Source: Desulfocapsa sp.
GTDB taxonomy: Bacteria > Desulfobacterota > Desulfobulbia > Desulfobulbales > Desulfocapsaceae
DNA length: 34,382 nucleotides
NCBI GenBank assembly: GCA_024763035.1
Contig: JANTGG010000017.1
Span: 1 to 34,382 of the forward strand
Reading direction: 5' to 3'
Shown here: positions 5,664-25,306 of the stretch, one piece after another
Numbering within the stretch: the first letter of the stretch is position 1
Layout: the number at the start of each line of letters is the position of its first letter
The notes under the pieces: model-generated
What the model was told of the DNA's origin: nothing
The model's input: only the letters and a program-made list of their open reading frames with translations
The model's database searches: none
Translations under genes and position numbers: made by a program

Positions 5664-7799
5664 TCAAGTATCATTTGTCACAGAAGCTATTGTCCGCAGC
5701 AGTTCCGTAAAATCAAAAGGTTTACCGATGGCAGCAGAAAAACCATGTTCCGCATAATTCTGCATCACCGGATCAACACTGTCACCACTGCTGGCAATGA
5801 TTTTTGCCTCCTCATGGAACACAGCTATCTCCCGGGCAGCATCAGCACCGCCCATACCATCAGGTACGTTTAAATCAAGAATAGCAACATCAAAAGGTGT
5901 CCCCTCAGCCAGCTGTTCGGAATAACACCTGACAGCCTCCTCTCCATTTGCAACCAGTTCCACCTCATACCCGCCAAGGGTCAGCATCTGACCAATAATA
6001 TCAAGAACAGATTCATCGTCATCCATAACAAGTACACTGCCCTTGCGACTGACAACTGTCTCCCCTTCCGACTTCGCTGTGACATCTTTTAGTGCTGCCT
6101 TTTTTCCAGGTGAAGCAGGAAGATACATGGTAAAAGTTGCCCCGCAGCCCTCAACAGACGCAACCGAGATCTGCCCTTTATGACGCTTTACAACAGAATG
6201 AACAGTGGCAAGCCCGAGCCCGCTCCCCTGCTTGCTGTCACGAGCCTTGGTTGTGAAATACGGATCAAAAATTTTATCCATGATATCAGCAGGAATACCA
6301 TACCCTGTGTCTGACACCTTTACCTGCACATAATACTCAGCCTTCAACCCTGCAATCTCACCATTATTTGTGAAATTACGACAGCTGATATAAACTACCC
6401 CACCTTCAGGCATGGCCTGCTGACTGTTTTCAATCAGATGAGTCAGGGCCTTGCGTATCTGTTCAAAATCCACTTCAGCCAGCCAGAGGTTCTTATCAAA
6501 CTGGTACTCGATGGAAATCTGTTCATCAATAATCGTGGAATTAACGGAATCAGTAACAATATCAGCAACAGATGATAGGCTGCAGGTGGGTGAGGTCTCT
6601 CTGGAAAAATGCTGCAGTTTCTGCGTCAATTCTTTTGCCCGTAGGGACGCCTCCTTTGCCGGAAGCAAAAAAGAGTATGCCGGATGATCCTCATCGATTG
6701 ACGCCATACTCATACTGATATTACCGAGAATTGCCGTAATAATATTATTAAAATCATGGGCAAGACCACCGGTCAGGATCTCGATGGACTGCAGTTTCTG
6801 ATGTTTTAAAATCTGCTCCTCCATCAGTTTGCGCTGACTGATATCATCAACAACCCAGACGACTCCTTTTGTCAAATCCGGTGAGGAGCTGTTATCTATT
6901 GCCTTTCCCGACAAGATACACCAGACGGAACCACCATCTTTTTTCCGCAGCTGATACTCAACGGTCACTGGTGCACCGTCGGCAAGTGCCTCATAATACT
7001 TTTCGCCAAACTCCTCAAAGCGTTCACGGGTAAGGTGCAGTTGCTTCATACTCATTCCCTGCATCACTTCCGGCGATTCGTATTCCAGCAAATCCGCCAT
7101 CCGCTGATTACAACGTGCCAGCCTGCGACCTCCGCGAAGGAGCATAAAACCTGTCATGGAGTTTGAGAAAATCGTCTCAAACTCGGCTGTTCGTTCGGCA
7201 GTTTTCTGCTCGGAGGCGTGCAGAGACTGTATATGCATGGCATTTTTAATGGCTGTGGCAGACTGATTGGCAAGGATCTGGGCAAGGGATCGCTCTTCAT
7301 CGATAAACACCCGTTTTTTCACGGTATGCCCCACAAATACACCGAACAGCTTTTTGTTGTGCATCATGGGTACAGCAATGGCAGAGGTAATATTATTTTG
7401 GAAAATGACTTCAGGGATTGATGTCCTTTTTTCGGTCTGAAAATCCTCTATCACCTCCACCCGCTCACTTTCCATCACAATTCCCGGCAACCCGACGCCC
7501 CTGCACACCGAGAACGAACCCACAAGTCCATCATCAAAACCAATGGTCTCGCTCACTACAAGGGTGCCGGGATCATCCCGGTTCAGGAGCAGAGTGGCAA
7601 AATCAAGGACCAGCAGATCCTTAAACAACTGCAGACAGTTTTTATAAATCTGCGTCAGTTCATGGAAAGAACCAAGTTTCGAGGAAAAATCCTCTATCTC
7701 CTTAAAAACATGAAACTGTCGCCGCAGACTTTCCAGGAGCTCACCATTTTGAGCCCGCAACAGTTTATTTTCCCGCTCTAGCTTTTCCATTGTACTCAT
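5664..7799 (-). CDS. Hybrid sensor histidine kinase: coiled coil-GAF-PAS-HisKA-HATPase-REC
   Basis: This is a soluble 711-residue hybrid kinase with no transmembrane segment. A short N-terminal coiled coil (residues 1-35) is followed by a GAF domain (about 40-190) and a PAS domain (about 205-325). The dimerisation domain has the H box [10 protein letters not shown] with the phospho-acceptor His348. The ATP-binding domain has an N box ([12 protein letters not shown]), G1 (DTGYGIP), F (DPYFTTK) and G2 (GSGLGLA). The C-terminal receiver has acidic DDD and phospho-acceptor Asp642 in [10 protein letters not shown]. No cognate response regulator is adjacent, so it presumably passes phosphate to an unlinked Hpt or regulator. 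It is divergent from the formate dehydrogenase operon, which makes a link possible but unproven. The ligand of the GAF/PAS domains is unknown. Confidence 0.9.
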
Positions 7800-8046: not shown

Positions 8047-10092
8047 ATGCGGGATGTGATGACCATCTGCAACTACTGCGGCTGCGGTTGCGGTGTCTAT
8101 CTAAAAGTGCATAACAACACGGTAATCGGTTCCTATCCCAGCAGGCACCACCCCATCAGCCGGGGAAACCTCTGCTCCAAGGGCTGGCATCTCCATGAAT
8201 TTGTCCACTCCAGCAATCGTCTCACCCAACCGCTTCTCCGTAAAAGCGGATCACTGACACCAGTATCCTGGGAAGAAGCTCTGGATTACACGGCAAAAGC
8301 CCTTTTGACAGCAAAAGAGCAGACCGGTGCAGACTCCATCGGCATCCTCTCCTCTGCCAAATGCACAAATGAAGAGAACTACCTGCTGCAGAAACTCGCC
8401 CGGGCAGGACTTGGCACAAACAATATCGATCACTGTGCGCGGCTCTGACACTCTTCCACTGTGGTAGGTCTTGCCACAAGTTTTGGATCCGGTGCCATGA
8501 CCAACTCCATCGGAGAACTGCAGGGAGCAGATGTACTGCTGGTCACCGGTTCAAACACCACGGAAACCCATCCCCAGATTGCCAGAAATATTCTGGAAGG
8601 AGTGGACAGAGGTGCAAAACTGATCGTCATCGACCCACGAAAAACAGAGCTTGCCAGACAGGCTCATGTCCACCTCGCCCTGCGTCCGGGTACAGACATT
8701 GCTCTTGTTAACGGCATTATGCGTAGTATCATTGATGAAAATCTGGCAGACGATTTGTTCATCTCCATGCGTACCGAGCAGTATGAGAAACTTCGCGATT
8801 ATCTTTTTCGCCTGAATCTTGATGAAATTGCCGCCATCACCGGTATTGGTCTGTCCACAATACGAAAAGCCGCAAAGATATACGCAAGGAGTTCCAACGC
8901 CGTTATCTGCTACTGTCTCGGGGTAACCCAACACACCTGCGGCACCGACAATGTACAGGCAGTCGCCAATCTTGCCATGCTCACCGGTAATATAGAAAAG
9001 GCGTACGGCGGAGTTGACCCCCTGCGCGGACAAAACAACGTGCAGGGAGCCTGTGATATGGCGGCACTGCCTGCAGTACTTCCGGGATATCAGGGGCTCG
9101 ACAATATTGATGCCCGCAGACGTTTTCAGCAGGTCTGGAACTGTGATATTCCGCAGACACCAGGACTGAGCCTTACAGAAATGACCCACTCCGGAGCGGA
9201 AGGCGATATCCGTGCCATGTATATCATGGGCGAGAATCCGGTTCTCAGTGATCCCCATCTCAAACGGGTGGAAACAACTTTGAAACAGCTGGATTTTCTT
9301 GCTGTCTCCGATATTTTTCTCACGGAAACCGCAGCCCTTGCCCATGTTGTCTTCCCGGCGGCTTCTTTTGCCGAGAAAGGCGGCACCATCACCAACTCCG
9401 AACGTCGGGTGCAACTCTGCAGGAAGGCGATCCCGCCCATTGGCAAGTGTCGTGCCGACGGTCATATTATCATGGAACTTGGCAGGCGACTCAACTGTCC
9501 GGGAATGGATTTTACCTCAAATGCCGAGATCATGGAAGAGATCAGCCTGCTCACTCCCATCTACGGCGGCATGCACTATGACAGGCTGGAGGAAAACTGG
9601 GGACTGCAGTGGCCCTGCTGGAATCGGGACCACCCGGGAACAAAATTCCTCCACAAGCATAATTTCACCAGAGGAAAAGGGCAGTTCACCATTACCCGGC
9701 ACCGTGAGCCCGCGGAAACAGTGGAAACCAAATACCCTTTCACCCTTGTTACCGGCAGAGGATCATACCATCATTATCACACTGCCACCATGACCAGAAA
9801 CTCCAGACGCCTTGTACGGGAGTACCCCGAAGCTCTTCTTGAGATTAATGAAAAAGACAGCAGGGCGCTGCAGCTGCAGCCCGGAGAACCGGTGGAAGTG
9901 CATTCCAGGCGCGGCAGCGTCCGGGTGAAAACGGTCGTCACCGACAGGGTACAGCCGGGGACGGTGTTTACCTCCTTTCACTTCTGGGAAGTGCCCATTA
10001 ACCAGTTAACTGTTGATGCCATGGATTCCAGATCAAAATGTCCGGAATTTAAAGTCTGCTCCGTCAATATAAAAAAGGTGTCCCATGCTTGA
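8047..10092 (+). CDS. fdhF: Selenocysteine formate dehydrogenase catalytic subunit (FdhF-like, Mo/W-bis-MGD)
   Basis: This enzyme interconverts formate and CO2. The reading frame is interrupted only by TGA at 8446-8448, in the context CARL-TGA-HSSTVVGLA. This aligns with ARV-Sec-HGPSVAGL of E. coli FDH-H (Sec140), so it is one gene of 681 residues with Sec134 and His135, not two. The N terminus binds one 4Fe-4S cluster (CNYCGCGCG, then NLCSKGW with the conserved Lys). Further FDH marks are VTGSNTTETHP, DPRKTELA, GVTQHTCGTDN, RGQNNVQGACDM and the C-terminal molybdopterin-binding domain starting near VTGRGSYHHYH. There is no TAT signal, so it is cytoplasmic. GAGGAAG lies nine bases before ATG 8047. 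The stop overlaps the next gene by eight bases. Confidence 0.93.
8446..8486 (+). promoter_or_regulatory. Bacterial SECIS element directing selenocysteine at UGA 8446
   Basis: Directly after the UGA, CC-ACU-GUGGU (8456-8465) pairs with GCCAC-A-AGU-UUU-GG (8473-8486), with one bulged A and a bulged UUU. The apical loop is AGGUCUU (8466-8472). The loop GGUCU and the distance from UGA resemble the E. coli fdhF SECIS recognised by SelB. selA, selB, selC and selD are not in the window. Confidence 0.85.
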
Positions 10093-11134
10093 TCTCAACG
10101 AAATGATCCTCCCAAAAGACAATCTGACACCATTGCTGCGCAAACTGGCAAAAGACGCACGGCTGATTGCCCCGATAAAAAACAGCTATGGAGACACCCT
10201 GTTCACGGTTATAGACGACATTGACAAGGCAGCCATTGATCTTGAAAATCAACCCCAGGCTTCACTTAAGCCCTATTTACTGCCCCAGCAGGAGACCCTT
10301 GCCACCTACCGCAACACCGAAGGCGGCTACATCTTTGCCGAGGCAGACGAAGAACCGGAGAGCATCTACTTCGGAGTCCGTTCCTGCGATCTTACGGCTG
10401 TCCTCTATACTGATCTTGTTTTCTCACGGCCGGTGAAAGACAGCAGCTACTTTAAACGCCGTAACAAATCACTGCTTATCACCATCGGCTGCAACCACCC
10501 GTTCAGCAACTGTTTCTGCGAGGCGAGCAACAGCGGCCCCTACCTGGAATACGGATACGATCTGCAGTTCATCGATCTGGGAGATGCCTATTTCGTCTCG
10601 GCAGGACGGAGAAAAGGATTGGATCTGCTGGAAAAATGGCTCTATTTCTTTAGAGCCGTCACCGACAGTGACCGGGAAAAGCGCTATCAGCTGCAGCTGG
10701 AAGTACGCGGCAAATTTACTCAAAACATTCAGGTATCCCAGGTCTGTCAGCTTCTGCAGGATCATGAAGTGGACGATTCCATCTGGCGGAAACTTTCCGG
10801 TCGCTGCTACGACTGCGGCGGCTGCGCCTATGTCTGCCCCACATGCACCTGCTTTTCAGTGGACGACGCGGCCATCGACGAAAATCACGGGCTGCGGCTG
10901 CGAAGCTGGGATGCCTGCACCAGCAGCGGTTTTACCCGTATGACCGGCGGACATAACCCTGTTGACCGTAGAACAGACGCCCTTAAACGCCGATTCCTGC
11001 ATAAACTTAAATATGATTATGCCGAACACGGCAAGCCCTCCTGCACCGGCTGTGGTCGCTGTGTGGATATCTGCTTTGGAGGTGTTGATATTACAACATT
11101 TATCAGTCTCGCTGCAAAGGGGGAAACAGTATGA
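10085..11134 (+). CDS. 4Fe-4S dicluster subunit, sulfhydrogenase beta (HydB) / AsrA family
   Basis: The family carries electrons between a flavin subunit and a catalytic subunit in archaeal sulfhydrogenase and in anaerobic sulfite reductase. The 349-residue protein has the characteristic N-terminal domain with the block YFGVRSCDLTAV and extra Cys at NCFCEAS. Two ferredoxin-like cluster sites follow near the C terminus: CYDCGGCAYVCPTC from Cys241 and CTGCGRCVDIC from Cys320. In the second the usual Pro after the last Cys is replaced by Phe. It overlaps the formate dehydrogenase stop by eight bases and the next gene by four. No hydrogenase large subunit or AsrC siroheme subunit follows, so the likely partner is the formate dehydrogenase. 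This gene pair with fdhF is inferred to form one complex. Confidence 0.87.
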   Translation: MLDLNEMILPKDNLTPLLRKLAKDARLIAPIKNSYGDTLFTVIDDIDKAAIDLENQPQASLKPYLLPQQETLATYRNTEGGYIFAEADEEPESIYFGVRSCDLTAVLYTDLVFSRPVKDSSYFKRRNKSLLITIGCNHPFSNCFCEASNSGPYLEYGYDLQFIDLGDAYFVSAGRRKGLDLLEKWLYFFRAVTDSDREKRYQLQLEVRGKFTQNIQVSQVCQLLQDHEVDDSIWRKLSGRCYDCGGCAYVCPTCTCFSVDDAAIDENHGLRLRSWDACTSSGFTRMTGGHNPVDRRTDALKRRFLHKLKYDYAEHGKPSCTGCGRCVDICFGGVDITTFISLAAKGETV

Positions 11135-11964
11135 AGGAAATATTCATCCCCGGCCGGGCAATCATCCGGGAGATTGTACAAGAAAACAAGCAGATTAAAA
11201 CCTTCCGCCTGGAACTGCTGGACAAGACGCAAAGCTTTACCTTTCGCCCGGGGCAATTTCTTATGCTCTCCATCCCCCATTGCGGCGAGGCTGCAATCTC
11301 CATCTCCTCCCCCCCCACTGCCCTGCCCCTGATCGACCTCTCCATCAGAAAAGCGGGCGTACTGACATCTGCCATTCACCGCATGCACAGTGGAGACGAA
11401 GTCGGTCTCCGCGGTCCATTTGGTACCGCCTTTCCGGTGGGCAACTTCCCGGGACATGATCTGCTTTTTATTGCCGGCGGCATCGGACTGGCCCCATTAA
11501 AGAGTGTCCTTGATTATTGCCTTTTTCAACAGGAAGTAGAAGACGACACGGTGCAACGAATCACCCTCCTCTACGGGAGCAGAACTGTTGCCGATATTGC
11601 TTTCCAAAAAGCCATCGAGAAATGGAAGAACCAGGGGGTGGACTGCAGACTCACCGTCGATGTGGGCGACCCTGACTGGTCCGGTTCAGTGGGACTGGTC
11701 ACCGAACTGTTACACCCGGATATTATAACGCCACAGACCATCAGCCTGGTCTGCGGACCACCGATAATGATCCGTTTTGTGATTGCAAAACTTCTCGACC
11801 TGGGACAATCTGAGACTGCAATACTCACAACCCTTGAGCGACACATGAAATGCGGCATGGGACTCTGCGGTCATTGCCATCTTGACGGCAAACTGGTCTG
11901 TGTGGACGGCCCGGTTTTCACCTACGCAGAACTCAAATTGATGAATATTATGGAGTTTTCCTGA
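11131..11964 (+). CDS. FAD/NAD(P)-binding oxidoreductase, sulfhydrogenase gamma (HydG) / AsrB family
   Basis: This 277-residue diaphorase has a ferredoxin-reductase fold. The FAD domain (about 1-105) contains RPGQFLML and the AsrB-type ISISSPP motif. The NAD(P) domain begins with FIAGGIGLAPLKSVL and includes LLYGSR and CGPPIM. A C-terminal 2Fe-2S site of the family is intact, with Cys241, Cys246, Cys249 and Cys257 in CGMGLCGHC and DGKLVC. It presumably passes electrons between NAD(P)H and the Fe-S chain of the previous subunit. The start overlaps the upstream stop by four bases and its own stop overlaps the next ATG by one base, so all four genes are tightly coupled. NAD versus NADP cannot be decided by eye. 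Confidence 0.88.
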   Translation: MKEIFIPGRAIIREIVQENKQIKTFRLELLDKTQSFTFRPGQFLMLSIPHCGEAAISISSPPTALPLIDLSIRKAGVLTSAIHRMHSGDEVGLRGPFGTAFPVGNFPGHDLLFIAGGIGLAPLKSVLDYCLFQQEVEDDTVQRITLLYGSRTVADIAFQKAIEKWKNQGVDCRLTVDVGDPDWSGSVGLVTELLHPDIITPQTISLVCGPPIMIRFVIAKLLDLGQSETAILTTLERHMKCGMGLCGHCHLDGKLVCVDGPVFTYAELKLMNIMEFS

Positions 11965-13959: not shown

Positions 13960-15060
13960 TTACAGTTTCTCCACAGACTCTGCCAGAATATAGCCGGCCT
14001 GGTTCTGATATGAAACCTTGTACCAGCCGTCAGTCTGGGAAATAACCTGCAGGACGGTTCCCGCAGGAATCGTACCCAGCACATCGGCATAGATATTTGC
14101 TGTCATCTGCATATAAGTCACTGCCACCGTCCTGACCTGGAGCAGCAGATTTTGAGGCAGTGTTTCTGTTGCCGGCTTCTGCTCCGGCTCTGTTGCGGCT
14201 GATGCCTGCAGCTCTGCCCGTGTGGGCCAGCGCTCTTTTGGAATTTCCCGGTCAACCACAGAGGCTGGAGGATTGCCGGTCGTTTCCGGTTGCCTATTTT
14301 CTTCCGTTATACCGGCTTGAGGAGACTGCAGCTTCTCTACTGCCGGTGCAGACTGAACAAGGCCCATGGCAAGCAGCGTAGCCTTGTCAATACGACCGGT
14401 CACCGGCAGCCCGTGATCCTTTTGATAGTTTTCAAGGGCAAGTCCGGTCTTTCTCCCCATTACCCCGTCGGCAACCCCTGCATTATACTGCTGCTGCAGT
14501 AATACTTCCTGCACGGCTTTCACCTGATTGTCACCGCTCTTTTTCACCCCGGACACAATCCCTCTGTAATATCTCGCCCGGGGAATCCAGCTTTTCAGAT
14601 AACAGAAATAATCAGAAGAGGTAAAGTCAAAGGCAGCACACCGGGAATTTTCAGCACATATCCTTTCACACTCCCGGGCATCCCGTACCTGGAAACGGGT
14701 ATAATCTCCACCGGGACGCTGTGTATCGTAACGTAGCTCAATAGTCGTATTTGCAGTGGACTGCGGATGTTTCACGGGTGTGTATATTTTCGCACCGGAG
14801 ACGGCACCGAGGTAATATGTTGAGGAATAGGCCCTGCTCTTCAACCAGCAGGAATGGTCGGACGTGTAAAAATCAAAAGCCTGACACCTTGACGACTTTT
14901 GGCAATAGTCCGCACAGTCCCTGGCCGTTGCCGTTGAGAAACTTGTATAGTCCCCGCCCGCCCGCCTGGTATTCCGATCAAGGGTCATGGAATCTGCTCC
15001 ATTTGCAGCAGGAGAACAGGTAAAAAAGATCAGGAGCATAAAAAAAAGTATTCGTTCCAT
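13960..15060 (-). CDS. Secreted PAN/apple-PAN/apple-PG_binding-SH3 protein
   Basis: This 366-residue protein has an N-terminal Sec signal peptide (hydrophobic residues 4-18, cleavage likely after AANG). Two similar PAN/apple-like modules follow, each starting GGDYT and containing the pattern CxxxC-x5-CxAFDF then a C-x-LKS (about 32-80 and 112-165). A peptidoglycan_binding_1 domain comes next (about 182-235, with ADGVMGRKT and YQKDHGLPVTG). A Pro/Glu-rich linker leads to a C-terminal bacterial SH3 domain (about 308-366). The layout suggests an envelope protein that anchors to peptidoglycan and presents adhesion modules, a role that is only inferred. It is convergent with the RACo-like gene and divergent from the DUF2959 lipoprotein, with 251 AT-rich bases between the latter pair. 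Confidence 0.82.
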   Translation of the reverse strand: MERILFFMLLIFFTCSPAANGADSMTLDRNTRRAGGDYTSFSTATARDCADYCQKSSRCQAFDFYTSDHSCWLKSRAYSSTYYLGAVSGAKIYTPVKHPQSTANTTIELRYDTQRPGGDYTRFQVRDARECERICAENSRCAAFDFTSSDYFCYLKSWIPRARYYRGIVSGVKKSGDNQVKAVQEVLLQQQYNAGVADGVMGRKTGLALENYQKDHGLPVTGRIDKATLLAMGLVQSAPAVEKLQSPQAGITEENRQPETTGNPPASVVDREIPKERWPTRAELQASAATEPEQKPATETLPQNLLLQVRTVAVTYMQMTANIYADVLGTIPAGTVLQVISQTDGWYKVSYQNQAGYILAESVEKL

Positions 15061-15975: not shown

Positions 15976-16260
15976 ATGGACAAGACACAAAAATTTTCCC
16001 CAAACCCGGACTTCACTGTTGAGAAGTTTGACAATGAAATCCTGCTCTATGCCGTTTCCGGTGGCAACGGCGTTTATCTCAACGAAACCGCCTGGCTGGT
16101 GTGGGAAATGTGCGGCAAAGGTCATTCCGTAGCTGAAATCATCACCATTCTGGAAGAAGCCTATCCTGAACACAAGGATTCCATCGACGCCGATGTCACC
16201 GCTGCCATCGAATCCATGACGGGCAAGGAAAACAGCCCGTTGCTGCCCATCCATGCATAA
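15976..16260 (+). CDS. PqqD-family peptide-binding protein
   Basis: PqqD-like proteins are small RRE-type winged-helix domains that bind precursor peptides for RiPP enzymes, and in other systems accompany HPr-kinase-like proteins. This 94-residue protein shows the family pattern: a beta region (EILLYAVSGGNGVYLNETAWLVWEMC) followed by G-HSVAEII and a terminal helix ending in AIESM. Its stop overlaps the ATG of the kinase-like gene by eight bases, tying the two together. No radical SAM enzyme, peptidase or recognisable precursor peptide is adjacent. Family membership is fairly clear from the VYLNETAWLVWE block; the substrate is unknown. Confidence 0.82.
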   Translation: MDKTQKFSPNPDFTVEKFDNEILLYAVSGGNGVYLNETAWLVWEMCGKGHSVAEIITILEEAYPEHKDSIDADVTAAIESMTGKENSPLLPIHA

Positions 16261-17122
16261 GATATGCAGCCGCAATGTCGGCTTTCACGGACAGTCTGTG
16301 ACCATAAACTGTTACGGGGCAGGATCGGTCGATCTGGTCGACTTTTTATTTTCAGATCTTCTCGTAGAGGAAGAAAGCGTGCCCCATGCTGTTTATGATG
16401 TCCTTTTTGCGGGTTCACACCCCATGATATCACTCTGGCGTGACGACAGGTCACTCTATTTCGGAGAGAGCAGATACGATCTTGCCTTTATCCTCCTTAA
16501 CGAGGTTACCTTTCAATGTATTACGGATAACAGTGCCGGACACGCCATTCATGCCGCCGCCGTCGGTTACTGGGAGGGAGCAATCCTTATGCCCGGGGAA
16601 AGCGGAGCCGGCAAAAGCACCCTTGTCAGCTGGCTGGTGGCAAACGGGGCAAACTATCTCACCGACGAGCTTGTTATCCTTGCAGAAGAGACCTCTCTGC
16701 TCCACTCCTTTACCCGACCCATCTCCATAAAAAGAGGTTCTGCGGCAGTTGTCTCATCTTTCATCCCTGTTAATGAAGCAGACCTCCTCACCGGACTCAA
16801 TGGTTTCATGCTTCCCCACCGCCAGGCAGGCAGCAATTTCATTCCAGCAGCGACACCACCCCTCTCCCACATTCTCTTTCCCCGACACATCCCCAACGCC
16901 CCCCCCTCAATCACCAGACTCAGCAGCGGACTGGGCTGTTCAAAGCTTCTTGAATGCTACGTAAACGCCAGAAACATCAAGGGACACGGTATCAGCCAGA
17001 TCGCCAACATCACCCGAAAGACTCCCGTTTTTGAACTCACCTACAGCAGCTTTGACGGACTCCGTGAAATCTTTGCAGAAACCTTTCCTGCACTCTTAAC
17101 TGAAGAAAAGTCAAAAAACTGA
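16253..17122 (+). CDS. HPr kinase-like (HprK-related) PEPCK-fold kinase
   Basis: This 289-residue protein has a degenerate N-terminal region followed by an HprK-like nucleotide site. It has HAAAVGYWEGAILMPGE leading into the Walker A GESGAGKS (residues 115-122), then YLTDELVIL corresponding to the LVADD segment of HprK. It is shorter than HprK/P and lacks the N-terminal regulatory domain. Relatives with a PqqD partner are annotated as HprK-related kinases, and a related kinase phosphorylates lasso peptides in some clusters. No PTS or HPr gene is in the window. It overlaps the PqqD-like gene by eight bases. The phospho-acceptor is unknown. Confidence 0.8.
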   Translation: MHKICSRNVGFHGQSVTINCYGAGSVDLVDFLFSDLLVEEESVPHAVYDVLFAGSHPMISLWRDDRSLYFGESRYDLAFILLNEVTFQCITDNSAGHAIHAAAVGYWEGAILMPGESGAGKSTLVSWLVANGANYLTDELVILAEETSLLHSFTRPISIKRGSAAVVSSFIPVNEADLLTGLNGFMLPHRQAGSNFIPAATPPLSHILFPRHIPNAPPSITRLSSGLGCSKLLECYVNARNIKGHGISQIANITRKTPVFELTYSSFDGLREIFAETFPALLTEEKSKN

Positions 17123-22688: not shown

Positions 22689-23861
22689 TTACTCCTGCAC
22701 CGGGAAAGCAAGATATCTGGGTAAATTACGCTCCACAAGTTCCTCGACAACCAGATCGGGCTGATACAGTGCCACCATTTTTTTCAGCATATCACCCTTG
22801 AAAAACGCTCTGGTCGTATCGTCATAATATTTCCAGAGATAAAAAACCTCGCCGTATCCTTCAGAAACAAAGGGTTTGAGATTTTCAAAAAATGAATCAT
22901 GAAGAACAAGCACCCGCAGAGGACGACCACTTTTGGCTGTATGATGGGGCCTCAACTGAGGGACAGTGAGAAGCCCCACCAGTGACGGAGGAACTCCTTT
23001 TGTCACAGCAGTAACAGCTGCAGGCTCAATGACGGGTCGATTTTCCCGGATTACATCGAGCTTTCCTATCATTAATGCCAGGTCTCCGCCCCGTGTTTCG
23101 TTCCAGCTCGCAGCAAAAGGTAACGGTTTCCATCGGGAAAAATCCGGAAACAACTCTCGGGTGCGTTTAAAGATCTCTGCGGCAGCAAAGGATGCCCCCC
23201 ACTTATTCCAGTGCGTATCACTCTTATGATACAAACGCCCATTTGCTTTCTGTGCTGTCAACCGGGCTCGAACATCAAGAAAACTTTCGGCACCTCGCTC
23301 AGGACGGCTGACAAGAAGCTGATCGAGTCGGCTGGACTCTCCGGAGCCCTGATAATAATGGGGCAGATATTCAGGATAGATGGTCTGCTTGTTGGGTGCT
23401 ACCAAAAAGATATAGGCAACCCCCTGCTCTTTCAGCCACTTCTGCCGACGAACGACCTGATTCCAGAATTGTTCTTTTTCCCTGTCTGAAAACTGCAATC
23501 TTCCTTTGAGGTCATCAAGGAGAAAGCCGCTGGAGAGGTACAGCCAGCCATCGCGTGCCTCAACCACATTTGGCACACCGGTCACCCCGAAACGTTTACT
23601 GGCCTCACGATGATAGCGGTGAATCAGAAACTCCCGCAGACCAAAATGATCCTGGAAGTAACTGTCAAAGGCACGGGTAAAATCCGTGAATGAGTTCTGC
23701 AGGCTCACGACAGGAAATGTCTGCAGTTCCCGCTTTTCCACTCCCGAATAGGGTTCATCTTTCTGAACAGCCCAAAGGATAAGGGGAAGCAGCAGGGAAA
23801 CCGAGAAAACAGCAACAATCAGTAAATCAACCAGTCTGTTTATGATCTGTTTTGATTCCAT
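22689..23861 (-). CDS. AlgJ/AlgX-like SGNH-type O-acetyltransferase partner
   Basis: AlgJ/AlgX-family proteins transfer acetyl groups to exopolysaccharide in the periplasm, after an MBOAT protein exports the acyl group. The 390-residue protein has an N-terminal membrane anchor (about residues 12-31) and a periplasmic domain with FGLREFLIHRYH and a DGWLYL block. The catalytic pair Asp215-x-His217 lies in KSDTHWNKWG, and Ser323 in LHDSFFENL. Its start is five bases after the stop of the MBOAT gene. The glycan acceptor is not identified, because no glycosyltransferase or polymerase is nearby. Confidence 0.87.
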   Translation of the reverse strand: MESKQIINRLVDLLIVAVFSVSLLLPLILWAVQKDEPYSGVEKRELQTFPVVSLQNSFTDFTRAFDSYFQDHFGLREFLIHRYHREASKRFGVTGVPNVVEARDGWLYLSSGFLLDDLKGRLQFSDREKEQFWNQVVRRQKWLKEQGVAYIFLVAPNKQTIYPEYLPHYYQGSGESSRLDQLLVSRPERGAESFLDVRARLTAQKANGRLYHKSDTHWNKWGASFAAAEIFKRTRELFPDFSRWKPLPFAASWNETRGGDLALMIGKLDVIRENRPVIEPAAVTAVTKGVPPSLVGLLTVPQLRPHHTAKSGRPLRVLVLHDSFFENLKPFVSEGYGEVFYLWKYYDDTTRAFFKGDMLKKMVALYQPDLVVEELVERNLPRYLAFPVQE

Positions 23862-23866
23862 CTCGT

Positions 23867-25306
23867 TTAAAACTGAAAGTAGAGGAAAGGGTGATACGCC
23901 TGGGCAGCAATGGAGATCAGGCTAAAATACAACAGTACGGCAAACACTCCAATACGACAGGTTCCCGCCATCACCGTACCGGCAGACAGAAACCGTCGTA
24001 GTAACATATCCTTGATTAAACCGGAGAAAAACGTGTACAGAGGCAGGGCAAACAGCAGTCCGGCAATCAGCTCGGTAAATAACAGCTTGTCTTCCGCAAG
24101 CAGAACAAAGAATGCTCCATCAAGCACTCCCCGAACCCCTCCCATAACCTGCAGATAATCCCATGCTGCTGCCAGCGAACTGCTTCGAAAAAGTACCCAG
24201 CCTCCCAGCACGGCAAGGGTCGTATAGAGCCAGCCGAGTCCCTGCTGCCAGACATTTTTCTGCTTCAGCGGAACAAGACGTTCCAGAACCAGGAAGATTC
24301 CGTGCCAGAGCCCCCAGACAATAAAGGTCCAGTTCGCTCCATGCCAGAGTCCGCAGAGCAGAAAGACAACAAGCAGGTTCAACATGGTACGTCCACTGCC
24401 CTTCCTGTTTCCCCCCAGGGGGATATAGAGGTAATCCCGCAGCCAGGTGGAGAGAGATATATGCCAGCGCCGCCAGAACTCCCGCATGGACCTGGAGATA
24501 TACGGATAATTGAAATTTTCCGGCAAATGAAAGCCAAACATCTTGCCAAGACCAATCGCCATATCCGAATATCCTGAGAAATCGTAATAAATCTGCAGGG
24601 AAAAACAGATCGCTCCGAGCCAGGCATCACCCATGGTGAGTTCTTGCAGGGGCAAGTTGAATATCTGGTCTGCCTTGGTGCCGAGGGTGTCGGCGAGCAG
24701 TATTTTCTTTGCCAGCCCGAAGGTGAATCGTTCGGCACCGACCGCAAAACCGGAAAGGGTTACCCTTCGCTGAACCAGCTGTCTGGCAATATCATGATAA
24801 CGGACAATGGGGCCGGCTATCAGCTGTGGAAACATGGAAATATACAATCCACAGTTCAAAAAATGCTGCTCGGCAGGGGCTACCCGGCGATACACGTCGA
24901 TAAGATAGGAGATGGCCTGAAAGGTAAAAAAGGAGATCCCGGCAGGAAGGTGAATGGTCTCTATCTGCCATGGATTCTGACCGGCTGAGAAAAAAACTGG
25001 AGCAAGAGCCGTCAAGGTAAAATGGAGATACTTAAAAATAAACAGCGGAACGAGATTGCAGATAACTCCAAGTGCGAGATACATTTTTCGTCTTCTGCCG
25101 ACACACTGCTCGATCCTGTGCCCGAGAATGTAGCTGACCAGAATGGACATGAGGAGCAGTAGTACATACCCCCCCTCACCCCAAACATAAAACAACAGAC
25201 TGGCAGCAAAAAGGATGTGATTTCTATACTGCTTTTTTCCCAGGAAACTTGCAGCAAGGACCACCGGCAGAAATAAAAAAAGAAAGGTTACAGAACTAAA
25301 AATCAT
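23867..25306 (-). CDS. MBOAT family O-acyltransferase (AlgI type)
   Basis: This 479-residue multi-pass membrane protein has about ten hydrophobic segments. It shows the AlgI core motifs, including FFTFQAISYLIDVYR, FPQLIAGPIVRY, SLQIYYDFSGYSDMAIGLG and REFWRRWHISLSTWLRDYLYIPLGGNR. The presumed active-site His322 lies in LCGLWHGANWTFIVWG. It probably moves an acetyl group across the inner membrane for the AlgJ-like protein encoded five bases downstream. The gene is divergent from a GGDEF-PilZ diguanylate cyclase across a 337-base gap. The ribosome binding site is weak (GGAT). AlgI is used here as a family name only; alginate itself is not implied. Confidence 0.9.
   Translation of the reverse strand: MIFSSVTFLFLFLPVVLAASFLGKKQYRNHILFAASLLFYVWGEGGYVLLLLMSILVSYILGHRIEQCVGRRRKMYLALGVICNLVPLFIFKYLHFTLTALAPVFFSAGQNPWQIETIHLPAGISFFTFQAISYLIDVYRRVAPAEQHFLNCGLYISMFPQLIAGPIVRYHDIARQLVQRRVTLSGFAVGAERFTFGLAKKILLADTLGTKADQIFNLPLQELTMGDAWLGAICFSLQIYYDFSGYSDMAIGLGKMFGFHLPENFNYPYISRSMREFWRRWHISLSTWLRDYLYIPLGGNRKGSGRTMLNLLVVFLLCGLWHGANWTFIVWGLWHGIFLVLERLVPLKQKNVWQQGLGWLYTTLAVLGGWVLFRSSSLAAAWDYLQVMGGVRGVLDGAFFVLLAEDKLLFTELIAGLLFALPLYTFFSGLIKDMLLRRFLSAGTVMAGTCRIGVFAVLLYFSLISIAAQAYHPFLYFQF

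Follow-up and report, generated by a model that had tools for sequence, protein, structure and literature searches.

In Desulfurivibrio dismutans AMeS2, three genes (RS03135-RS03125) encode the catalytic subunit of a formate dehydrogenase (FDH), FdhF, and a pair of HydB- and HydG-like electron-transfer subunits, and their products have been proposed to transfer electrons from NAD(P)H to CO2 (PMC12142623). Here we describe the orthologous trio of a Desulfocapsa sp., encoded on a stretch of 34,382 nucleotides (contig JANTGG010000017.1; this whole stretch is referred to as the window) together with a gene for a putative corrinoid activator, AcsV1. FdhF, HydB and HydG of the two organisms are 57%, 50% and 52% identical, and in D. 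dismutans (L170; L, G and C numbers are our handles for loci, genomes and contigs) an AcsV1 gene starts 24 nt after the HydG match; the terms selenocyst-, corrinoid and RACo do not appear in the main text of PMC12142623. A further comparable system, Fdh3 of Thermococcus onnurineus, is a soluble FDH of several subunits that is linked to NADP and can also reduce CO2 with NADPH; however, its diaphorase is modelled on NfnI, it possesses small Fe-S subunits and it uses cysteine rather than selenocysteine (Sec) (PMC8965080). Cytoplasmic FDHs are not monophyletic in Desulfobacterota according to PMC12827605, in the main text of which HydB and AcsV do not occur. The pairing of an FDH with HydB/HydG was not found in the available text of PMC4911364 and PMC9686372, which treat FDHs or sulfhydrogenases, nor elsewhere among the matches listed in literature searches that ran without most subscription journals. 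The initial annotation of the window, made from its letters, had held that a bacterial Sec version of such a pairing appears little described; no other account of it was found, but the same trio and the same NAD(P)H-to-CO2 proposal are already in print (PMC12142623). Judged by its genes, the enzyme is a variant of known NAD(P)-linked FDHs and has partly been published; new here are the AcsV1 neighbour, the selenocysteine evidence, the distribution and an apparent diaphorase swap. The electron input to CO2 reduction in autotrophic sulfur disproportionators has only been hypothesised (PMC12142623), and the locus offers a conserved gene set open to expression and assay.

We consider it probable that the trio encodes a soluble, cytoplasmic, non-bifurcating and reversible NAD(P)H-linked FDH, which works mainly as a CO2 reductase for the Wood-Ljungdahl pathway, with AcsV1 reactivating the corrinoid iron-sulfur protein. 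In the proposed mechanism, the Sec-Mo/W site of FdhF would interconvert CO2 and formate, and electrons would pass from the [4Fe-4S] cluster of FdhF via the clusters of HydB and the [2Fe-2S] cluster and FAD of HydG to NAD(P)H, or in the reverse direction. The enzyme would serve the methyl branch of the pathway, mainly by reducing CO2 during autotrophic growth, a second FDH (fused FdhAB) at the acetyl-CoA-synthase (acs) operon would work alongside it, and AcsV1 would restore the pathway's corrinoid Fe-S protein to activity. The role in CO2 fixation is suggested because the trio is encoded with the corrinoid activator, and the domains of FdhF, HydB and HydG appear to hold no sign of bifurcation. 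All three genes of the trio were found in the window, overlapping as first described (Table 1); they are separate, and the word "fused" in the title of the initial annotation was wrong. A fourth overlapping gene, acsV1, had been overlooked. The overlaps, read directly, amount to 8 nt (FdhF/HydB), 4 nt (HydB/HydG) and 1 nt (HydG/acsV1), and the four genes probably form one operon. It had also been argued that overlap implies a stoichiometric complex. This does not hold, because most loci outside the genus have gaps, the distance between fdhF and hydB ranging from overlap to 356 nt as taken between alignment ends, not gene ends; overlap by itself does not imply a complex, and the complex proposed here is a prediction.

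FdhF belongs to the FdhF-type FDH alpha family (TIGR01591, 777 bits; cut-off 666) and contains the Fe4S4, molybdopterin and dinucleotide-binding domains (Pfam). Its in-frame TGA very probably encodes selenocysteine. TGA occupies this position in 104 rows with FdhF of at least 54% identity, which correspond to 69 distinct 72-nt stretches as some genomes were fetched twice; a Cys codon is present in three loci (L169, L172, L174) and one row (L160) is misaligned. All six pairs of the downstream hairpin are present in 67 of the 69 distinct stretches and the loop GGTCT in 66, whilst the closing pair, both sides of which are third codon positions, is A-U in 55, C-G in 13 and G-C in 1. In an alignment of 20 sequences, 98.3% of the cells pair, against 24-71% for slid partners, and two-sided changes were observed in 8 cells (shuffled mean 3.2), all at one of the six pairs. 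Three of five pairing measures lay above all 500 shuffles, while 499 of the 500 matched or exceeded the remaining two, namely the pairs showing two-sided changes and the further pair types. Folding energy was not significant (z -0.55, with 55 of 200 shuffles equally stable) and was dropped as evidence for a selenocysteine insertion sequence (SECIS). The Cys versions L169, L172 and L174 form 2, 2 and 3 of the six pairs, respectively. The source genome (3.3 Mb, 209 contigs, 92% complete) encodes SelB (370 bits; cut-off 242). The conserved TGA, the SECIS-like hairpin and SelB are together, at the level of sequence, what is expected of a selenoprotein, which bears out the initial reading of FdhF as a Sec enzyme, and the conservation of TGA and hairpin in relatives rules out a sequencing error. 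In one metagenome-assembled genome (MAG), FdhF is split into two frames near residue 440 (L047:260-2298), by an assembly error or as a pseudogene.

The HydB-like protein contains a Fer4_22 domain and matched NF040833, AsrA and ShyB at 155, 150 and 149 bits, all under the cut-offs. Its closest solved relative is the beta subunit of sulfhydrogenase 1 (9nez_B, E=8e-39), in a structure which we take to be that of Pyrococcus furiosus SHI; its 15 Cys are invariant in 19 aligned sequences and each is matched by a Cys in 9nez_B. The HydG-like protein combines FAD, NAD and DHODB-type [2Fe-2S] domains. It is closest to the gamma subunit of the same structure (9nez_C, E=3e-51), and its conserved cluster cysteines (Cys 241, 246, 249 and 257) match those of 9nez gamma. 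Both proteins fall below the SHI, SHII and AsrAB cut-offs, the curated sulfhydrogenase scores being 155 bits against 750 for HydB and 180 against 650 for HydG. Sulfhydrogenase 1 thus shares with the locus HydB/HydG homologues carrying the Fe-S and [2Fe-2S] cysteines, whereas its NiFe alpha and delta subunits have no counterpart in the window, where FdhF adjoins instead. The AsrABC sulfite reductase likewise offers homologues of HydB/HydG in AsrA and AsrB, but AsrC is part of that system, and the HydB- and HydG-like proteins stay below the cut-offs of AsrA (150 versus 323 bits) and AsrB (203 versus 289), as does the best AsrC match of the source genome (51 versus 324). As to the cofactor, 9nez gamma, NADPH-dependent by its family name, reads SVTRDPNW where the HydG of the window reads LTVDVGDPDW, a motif read directly and independent of the following count. 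Asp stands at this position in 70 of 74 parsed FDH-type sequences (of 81), a count in which the pattern picked an incorrect tryptophan for three rows or more (L070, L143 and the window's own, L091). It recalls NADH-specific relatives, a meaning that we presume, weakly, by analogy with cytochrome b5 reductase, and makes NADH somewhat likelier than NADPH.

The order fdhF-hydB-hydG is widely conserved. When the search that the initial annotation had called for was run across Desulfobulbales and the wider phylum, HydB was matched in 97 of 146 genomes of the order, and in 62 of these (counting the window) at 380 bits or more; the next matches down are a partial one (216 bits, 55%) and, after it, paralogues close to 30%. 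Loci were fetched for 40 of the 61 other strong matches: all 40 have fdhF upstream of hydB on the same strand (truncated by the contig end in L076), 39 have hydG downstream of it (the contig of L072 ends first), and AcsV1 follows within 1.2 kb in 24 of these 39. A scan of named genomes, with 79 loci kept of 133 relatives, drew on many of the same genomes and nearly all on Desulfobulbales-type MAGs. It placed fdhF upstream of hydB in 75 of the 79, the rest being cut by an edge (L132, L189) or without fdhF (L161, HydB 49% identical; L190, 33%), and AcsV1 after the trio in at least 34 of 76 loci with hydG, several of which end early. Across the phylum, 11 of 395 genomes had a HydB match of at least 480 bits, six of them outside the order; the five non-order loci fetched (L244-L248) all contain the trio, FdhF carrying Sec in one and Cys in the other four (L245-L248). 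The same gene order recurs at lower identity in one record each of Thermincola (Sec) and Planctomycetota (Cys), and in another family of the phylum the order is HydG-FdhF(Sec)-HydB (L261:6172-10015). Going by these gene orders, the association of FdhF with HydB and HydG is not due to chance.

The best comparative evidence that HydB/HydG acts as the NAD(P)H diaphorase of FdhF comes from two loci with an apparent exchange of this module. In L201:7080-13746 and L203:2858-9387, the genes immediately ahead of AcsV1 encode a Complex1_51K protein and a Sec-FDH whose N-terminus is NuoG-like, as though the FDH unit had been replaced on the spot. These NuoF-type NAD-FDHs resemble the locus of the window in the Sec-FDH, the NAD-type diaphorase and the adjoining AcsV1, whereas their diaphorase is of the Complex1_51K type instead of HydB/HydG, which appears to have been exchanged beside the same activator. 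The two loci are separated in the AcsV1 tree: L201 neighbours an FDH-operon row from the same family, and L203 groups with two rows of its own family in which AcsV1 stands alone, followed by FDH-operon rows. The recurring set consists of a Sec-FDH, a pyridine-nucleotide diaphorase and AcsV1, and the apparent exchange suggests that the NAD(P)H input of FDHs is a plug-in module.

AcsV1 itself has the [2Fe-2S] and ASKHA domains of RACo (3zyy, E=4e-150), presumably the Carboxydothermus hydrogenoformans protein; the four [2Fe-2S] cysteines (Cys 41, 47, 50 and 80) are kept and Ser413 aligns with Ser398 of 3zyy. In RACo, Ser398 binds cobalt and the [2Fe-2S] cluster has a potential of -340 mV (PMC4934906). 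With these domains, cysteines and cobalt-ligand serine AcsV1 qualifies as a RACo-type protein, although it scores under the NCBIfam AcsV cut-off of 800 bits (636), as does a second copy, AcsV2 (685). It differs from RACo in the adjoining FDH and diaphorase genes and in the presence of AcsV2, which is about 45% identical and is encoded on contig C40 (L098:8351-11928) beside an AcsE-like methyltransferase (under the NCBIfam cut-offs). This rules out AcsV1 as the sole activator; a third, weaker AcsV match is also present in the source genome. Beside AcsV2, C40 encodes a conserved 181-aa protein without an NCBIfam match. In an AcsV tree of 61 rows (for which, as for the 54-row HydB tree below, L112-L169 and L171-L187 were omitted as largely duplicating L041-L080), 46 rows form the AcsV1 set: 27 with HydG near (labelled as FDH operon on this ground, and including L202 and the contig-cut L189 and L215), 17 apart, which were fetched on purpose so that proportions are not frequencies, and 2 beside another FDH. 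When the tree is rooted at its midpoint, the sister group of AcsV1 is the acsD-adjacent AcsV of three trio-less genomes, and AcsV2 lies apart. From this tree and the neighbours, the target of AcsV1 is probably the organism's corrinoid Fe-S protein.

The Wood-Ljungdahl pathway is represented in the same genome by contig C7 (L097:1-9899), which encodes FolD, CODH, a MetF-AcsD fusion, AcsB and AcsC; at the edge of this acs operon, the contig breaks off within a second FDH gene. This gene, which the initial annotation had overlooked, rules out the trio as the sole FDH of the pathway. It encodes an FdhAB 79% identical to that of G041 (same genus), where the protein combines 2Fe-2S, FAD/NAD(P), 4Fe-4S and Sec-Mo domains and the next gene is HdrA-like, so labelled for its FAD and Fer4 domains. 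In four genomes of the genus g38 (G070, G064, G114 and G052), the trio lies about 1-8 kb from an acs-FdhAB-HdrA operon (L101, L102/L103, L106, L107), without AcsV1 beside it, and in a fifth locus (L140) it adjoins the FdhAB-HdrA end of the acs operon.

Several observations weigh against the favoured reading. The linkage of trio and acs operon is known from one genus, and that operon has its own FDH, FdhAB. AcsV1 is absent after 15 of the 39 trios of the order, with at least 2.4 kb downstream in view, and is not in view in any of the five trios outside the order (L248 shows 1.1 kb past HydG). L161:7917-9026 is a HydB orthologue, 49% identical, with no FdhF in the 8 kb upstream and with HydG possibly past the contig end, and L202:7265-12697 shows overlapping HydG and AcsV1 genes after one for a chemotaxis receptor, neither FdhF nor HydB being in view, possibly as an operon remnant. 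The preference for NADH is drawn from one Asp that is also present in the hydrogenase-linked HydG of L084, and under standard conditions formate is a stronger reductant than NADH. In D. dismutans, FdhA of the trio was expressed at a low level and probably has a minor role under the conditions used (PMC12142623).

Some of these points suit a different direction for the same complex, which might mainly oxidise formate and so provide NAD(P)H for biosynthesis, FdhAB making the formate for the Wood-Ljungdahl pathway. We regard this as possible, though rather unlikely. It would agree with the presence of an FDH at the acs operon, with the low expression and presumed minor role in D. dismutans, and with the textbook view that formate oxidation is the favoured reaction of a simple NAD(P)-linked FDH under standard conditions; it leaves the recurrence of AcsV1 after the trio, and the proximity of the trio to the acs operon in g38, to be accounted for, and the D. 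dismutans FdhA is upregulated in sulfur disproportionation relative to formate-dependent nitrate reduction (PMC12142623).

The frequent company of AcsV1 raises a further alternative, namely that FDH/HydBG is also the dedicated reductase of AcsV1, passing electrons from formate or NADH to its [2Fe-2S] cluster, from which AcsV1 would reduce Co(II) of the corrinoid Fe-S protein with ATP. AcsV1 overlaps hydG in the window, tends to follow the trio across the order and stays beside the FDH even where the diaphorase is of the NuoF type, and a cluster at -340 mV, as in RACo, would be within reach of NADH and formate (PMC4934906, which gives no electron donor for RACo in the text available). Yet we judge this role improbable: AcsV1 occurs apart from FDH in 17 of the 46 tree rows, in a sample enriched for such cases, the source genome has AcsV2 next to an AcsE-like gene, ferredoxin or flavodoxin are given as example donors for the related O-demethylase activator (PMC6739815), and a shared pathway already explains the gene order. 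As AcsV1 keeps recurring as a neighbour, it can be put to the test where a corrinoid activator obtains its electrons.

Profile searches of the source genome found a single HydB, no AsrC and one NiFe hydrogenase over cut-off, which is on another contig (C9); no NiFe large or small subunit is among the genes of the unit. Within this 92% complete assembly, no hydrogenase or sulfite reductase could therefore claim HydB, and a hydrogenase or Asr partner elsewhere in the genome is ruled out. The searches support the earlier description of a Sec FdhF with a HydB/HydG-type diaphorase and no hydrogenase or AsrC subunit. In a HydB tree of 54 rows, 46 FDH-linked rows lie on one side of a 99/95 branch and the 8 others on the opposite side, these Hdr- and NiFe-linked rows being the only comparators and some branches (L188 and others) being long. 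A wider tree of 41 rows recovers the 21 main FDH-linked rows as a group at 94/94; support is no more than 46/16 where the Thermincola and Planctomycetota rows are added, and L261 is placed with the HydB of another Mo enzyme. By these trees, FDH-linked HydB is a branch of its own, apart from Hdr- and NiFe-linked HydB, and the grouping with hydrogenase or sulfite reductase partners that would have spoken against the initial reading did not occur. That HydB/HydG serve a hydrogenase or sulfite reductase encoded elsewhere and stand beside fdhF incidentally is very improbable given this branch, the single HydB and the constant upstream fdhF in the order, even though the nearest solved structures belong to sulfhydrogenase subunits, paralogues of about 30% identity have other partners in other genomes (of seven paralogous HydBG loci in the order, one is with a NiFe hydrogenase, L084, and six are near HdrA-like genes) and the orthologous HydB of L161 lacks an adjoining FdhF. 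Separately, the HydB/HydG pairs of L252, L255 and L256 adjoin a distantly related molybdopterin enzyme that shares 26-31% identity with FdhF and may be a further NAD(P)H-linked Mo enzyme.

Table 1 Features of the fdhF-hydB-hydG-acsV1 unit and its flanking genes in the window
Feature	Position	Strand	Basis
fdhF, predicted FDH catalytic subunit, 681 aa, Sec134, stop TGA	8047..10092	+	TIGR01591, Pfam, translation
hydB-like, predicted Fe-S electron-transfer subunit, 349 aa, 15 invariant Cys	10085..11134	+	9nez_B match
hydG-like, predicted FAD/NAD(P)/[2Fe-2S] diaphorase subunit, 277 aa	11131..11964	+	9nez_C match
acsV1, putative RACo-type reductive activator of corrinoid proteins, 651 aa	11964..13919	+	3zyy match, RACo Pfam domains
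Very probable Sec codon TGA, motif NIDHCARL-U-HSSTVVGL	8446..8448	+	conserved TGA in relatives
SECIS-like hairpin, 6-bp stem, loop GGUCU	8461..8477	+	pairing kept in relatives
GAF/PAS histidine kinase gene, flanks unit	5664-7799	-	
PAN-domain protein gene, flanks unit	13960-15060	-	

Elsewhere in the window, a PqqD-like gene is followed by a gene for an HprK-related kinase A (below cut-off), an uncharacterised pair (15976-17122), and adjacent genes for an AlgX-like protein and an MBOAT acyltransferase (22689-25306) resemble a system for polysaccharide O-acetylation.

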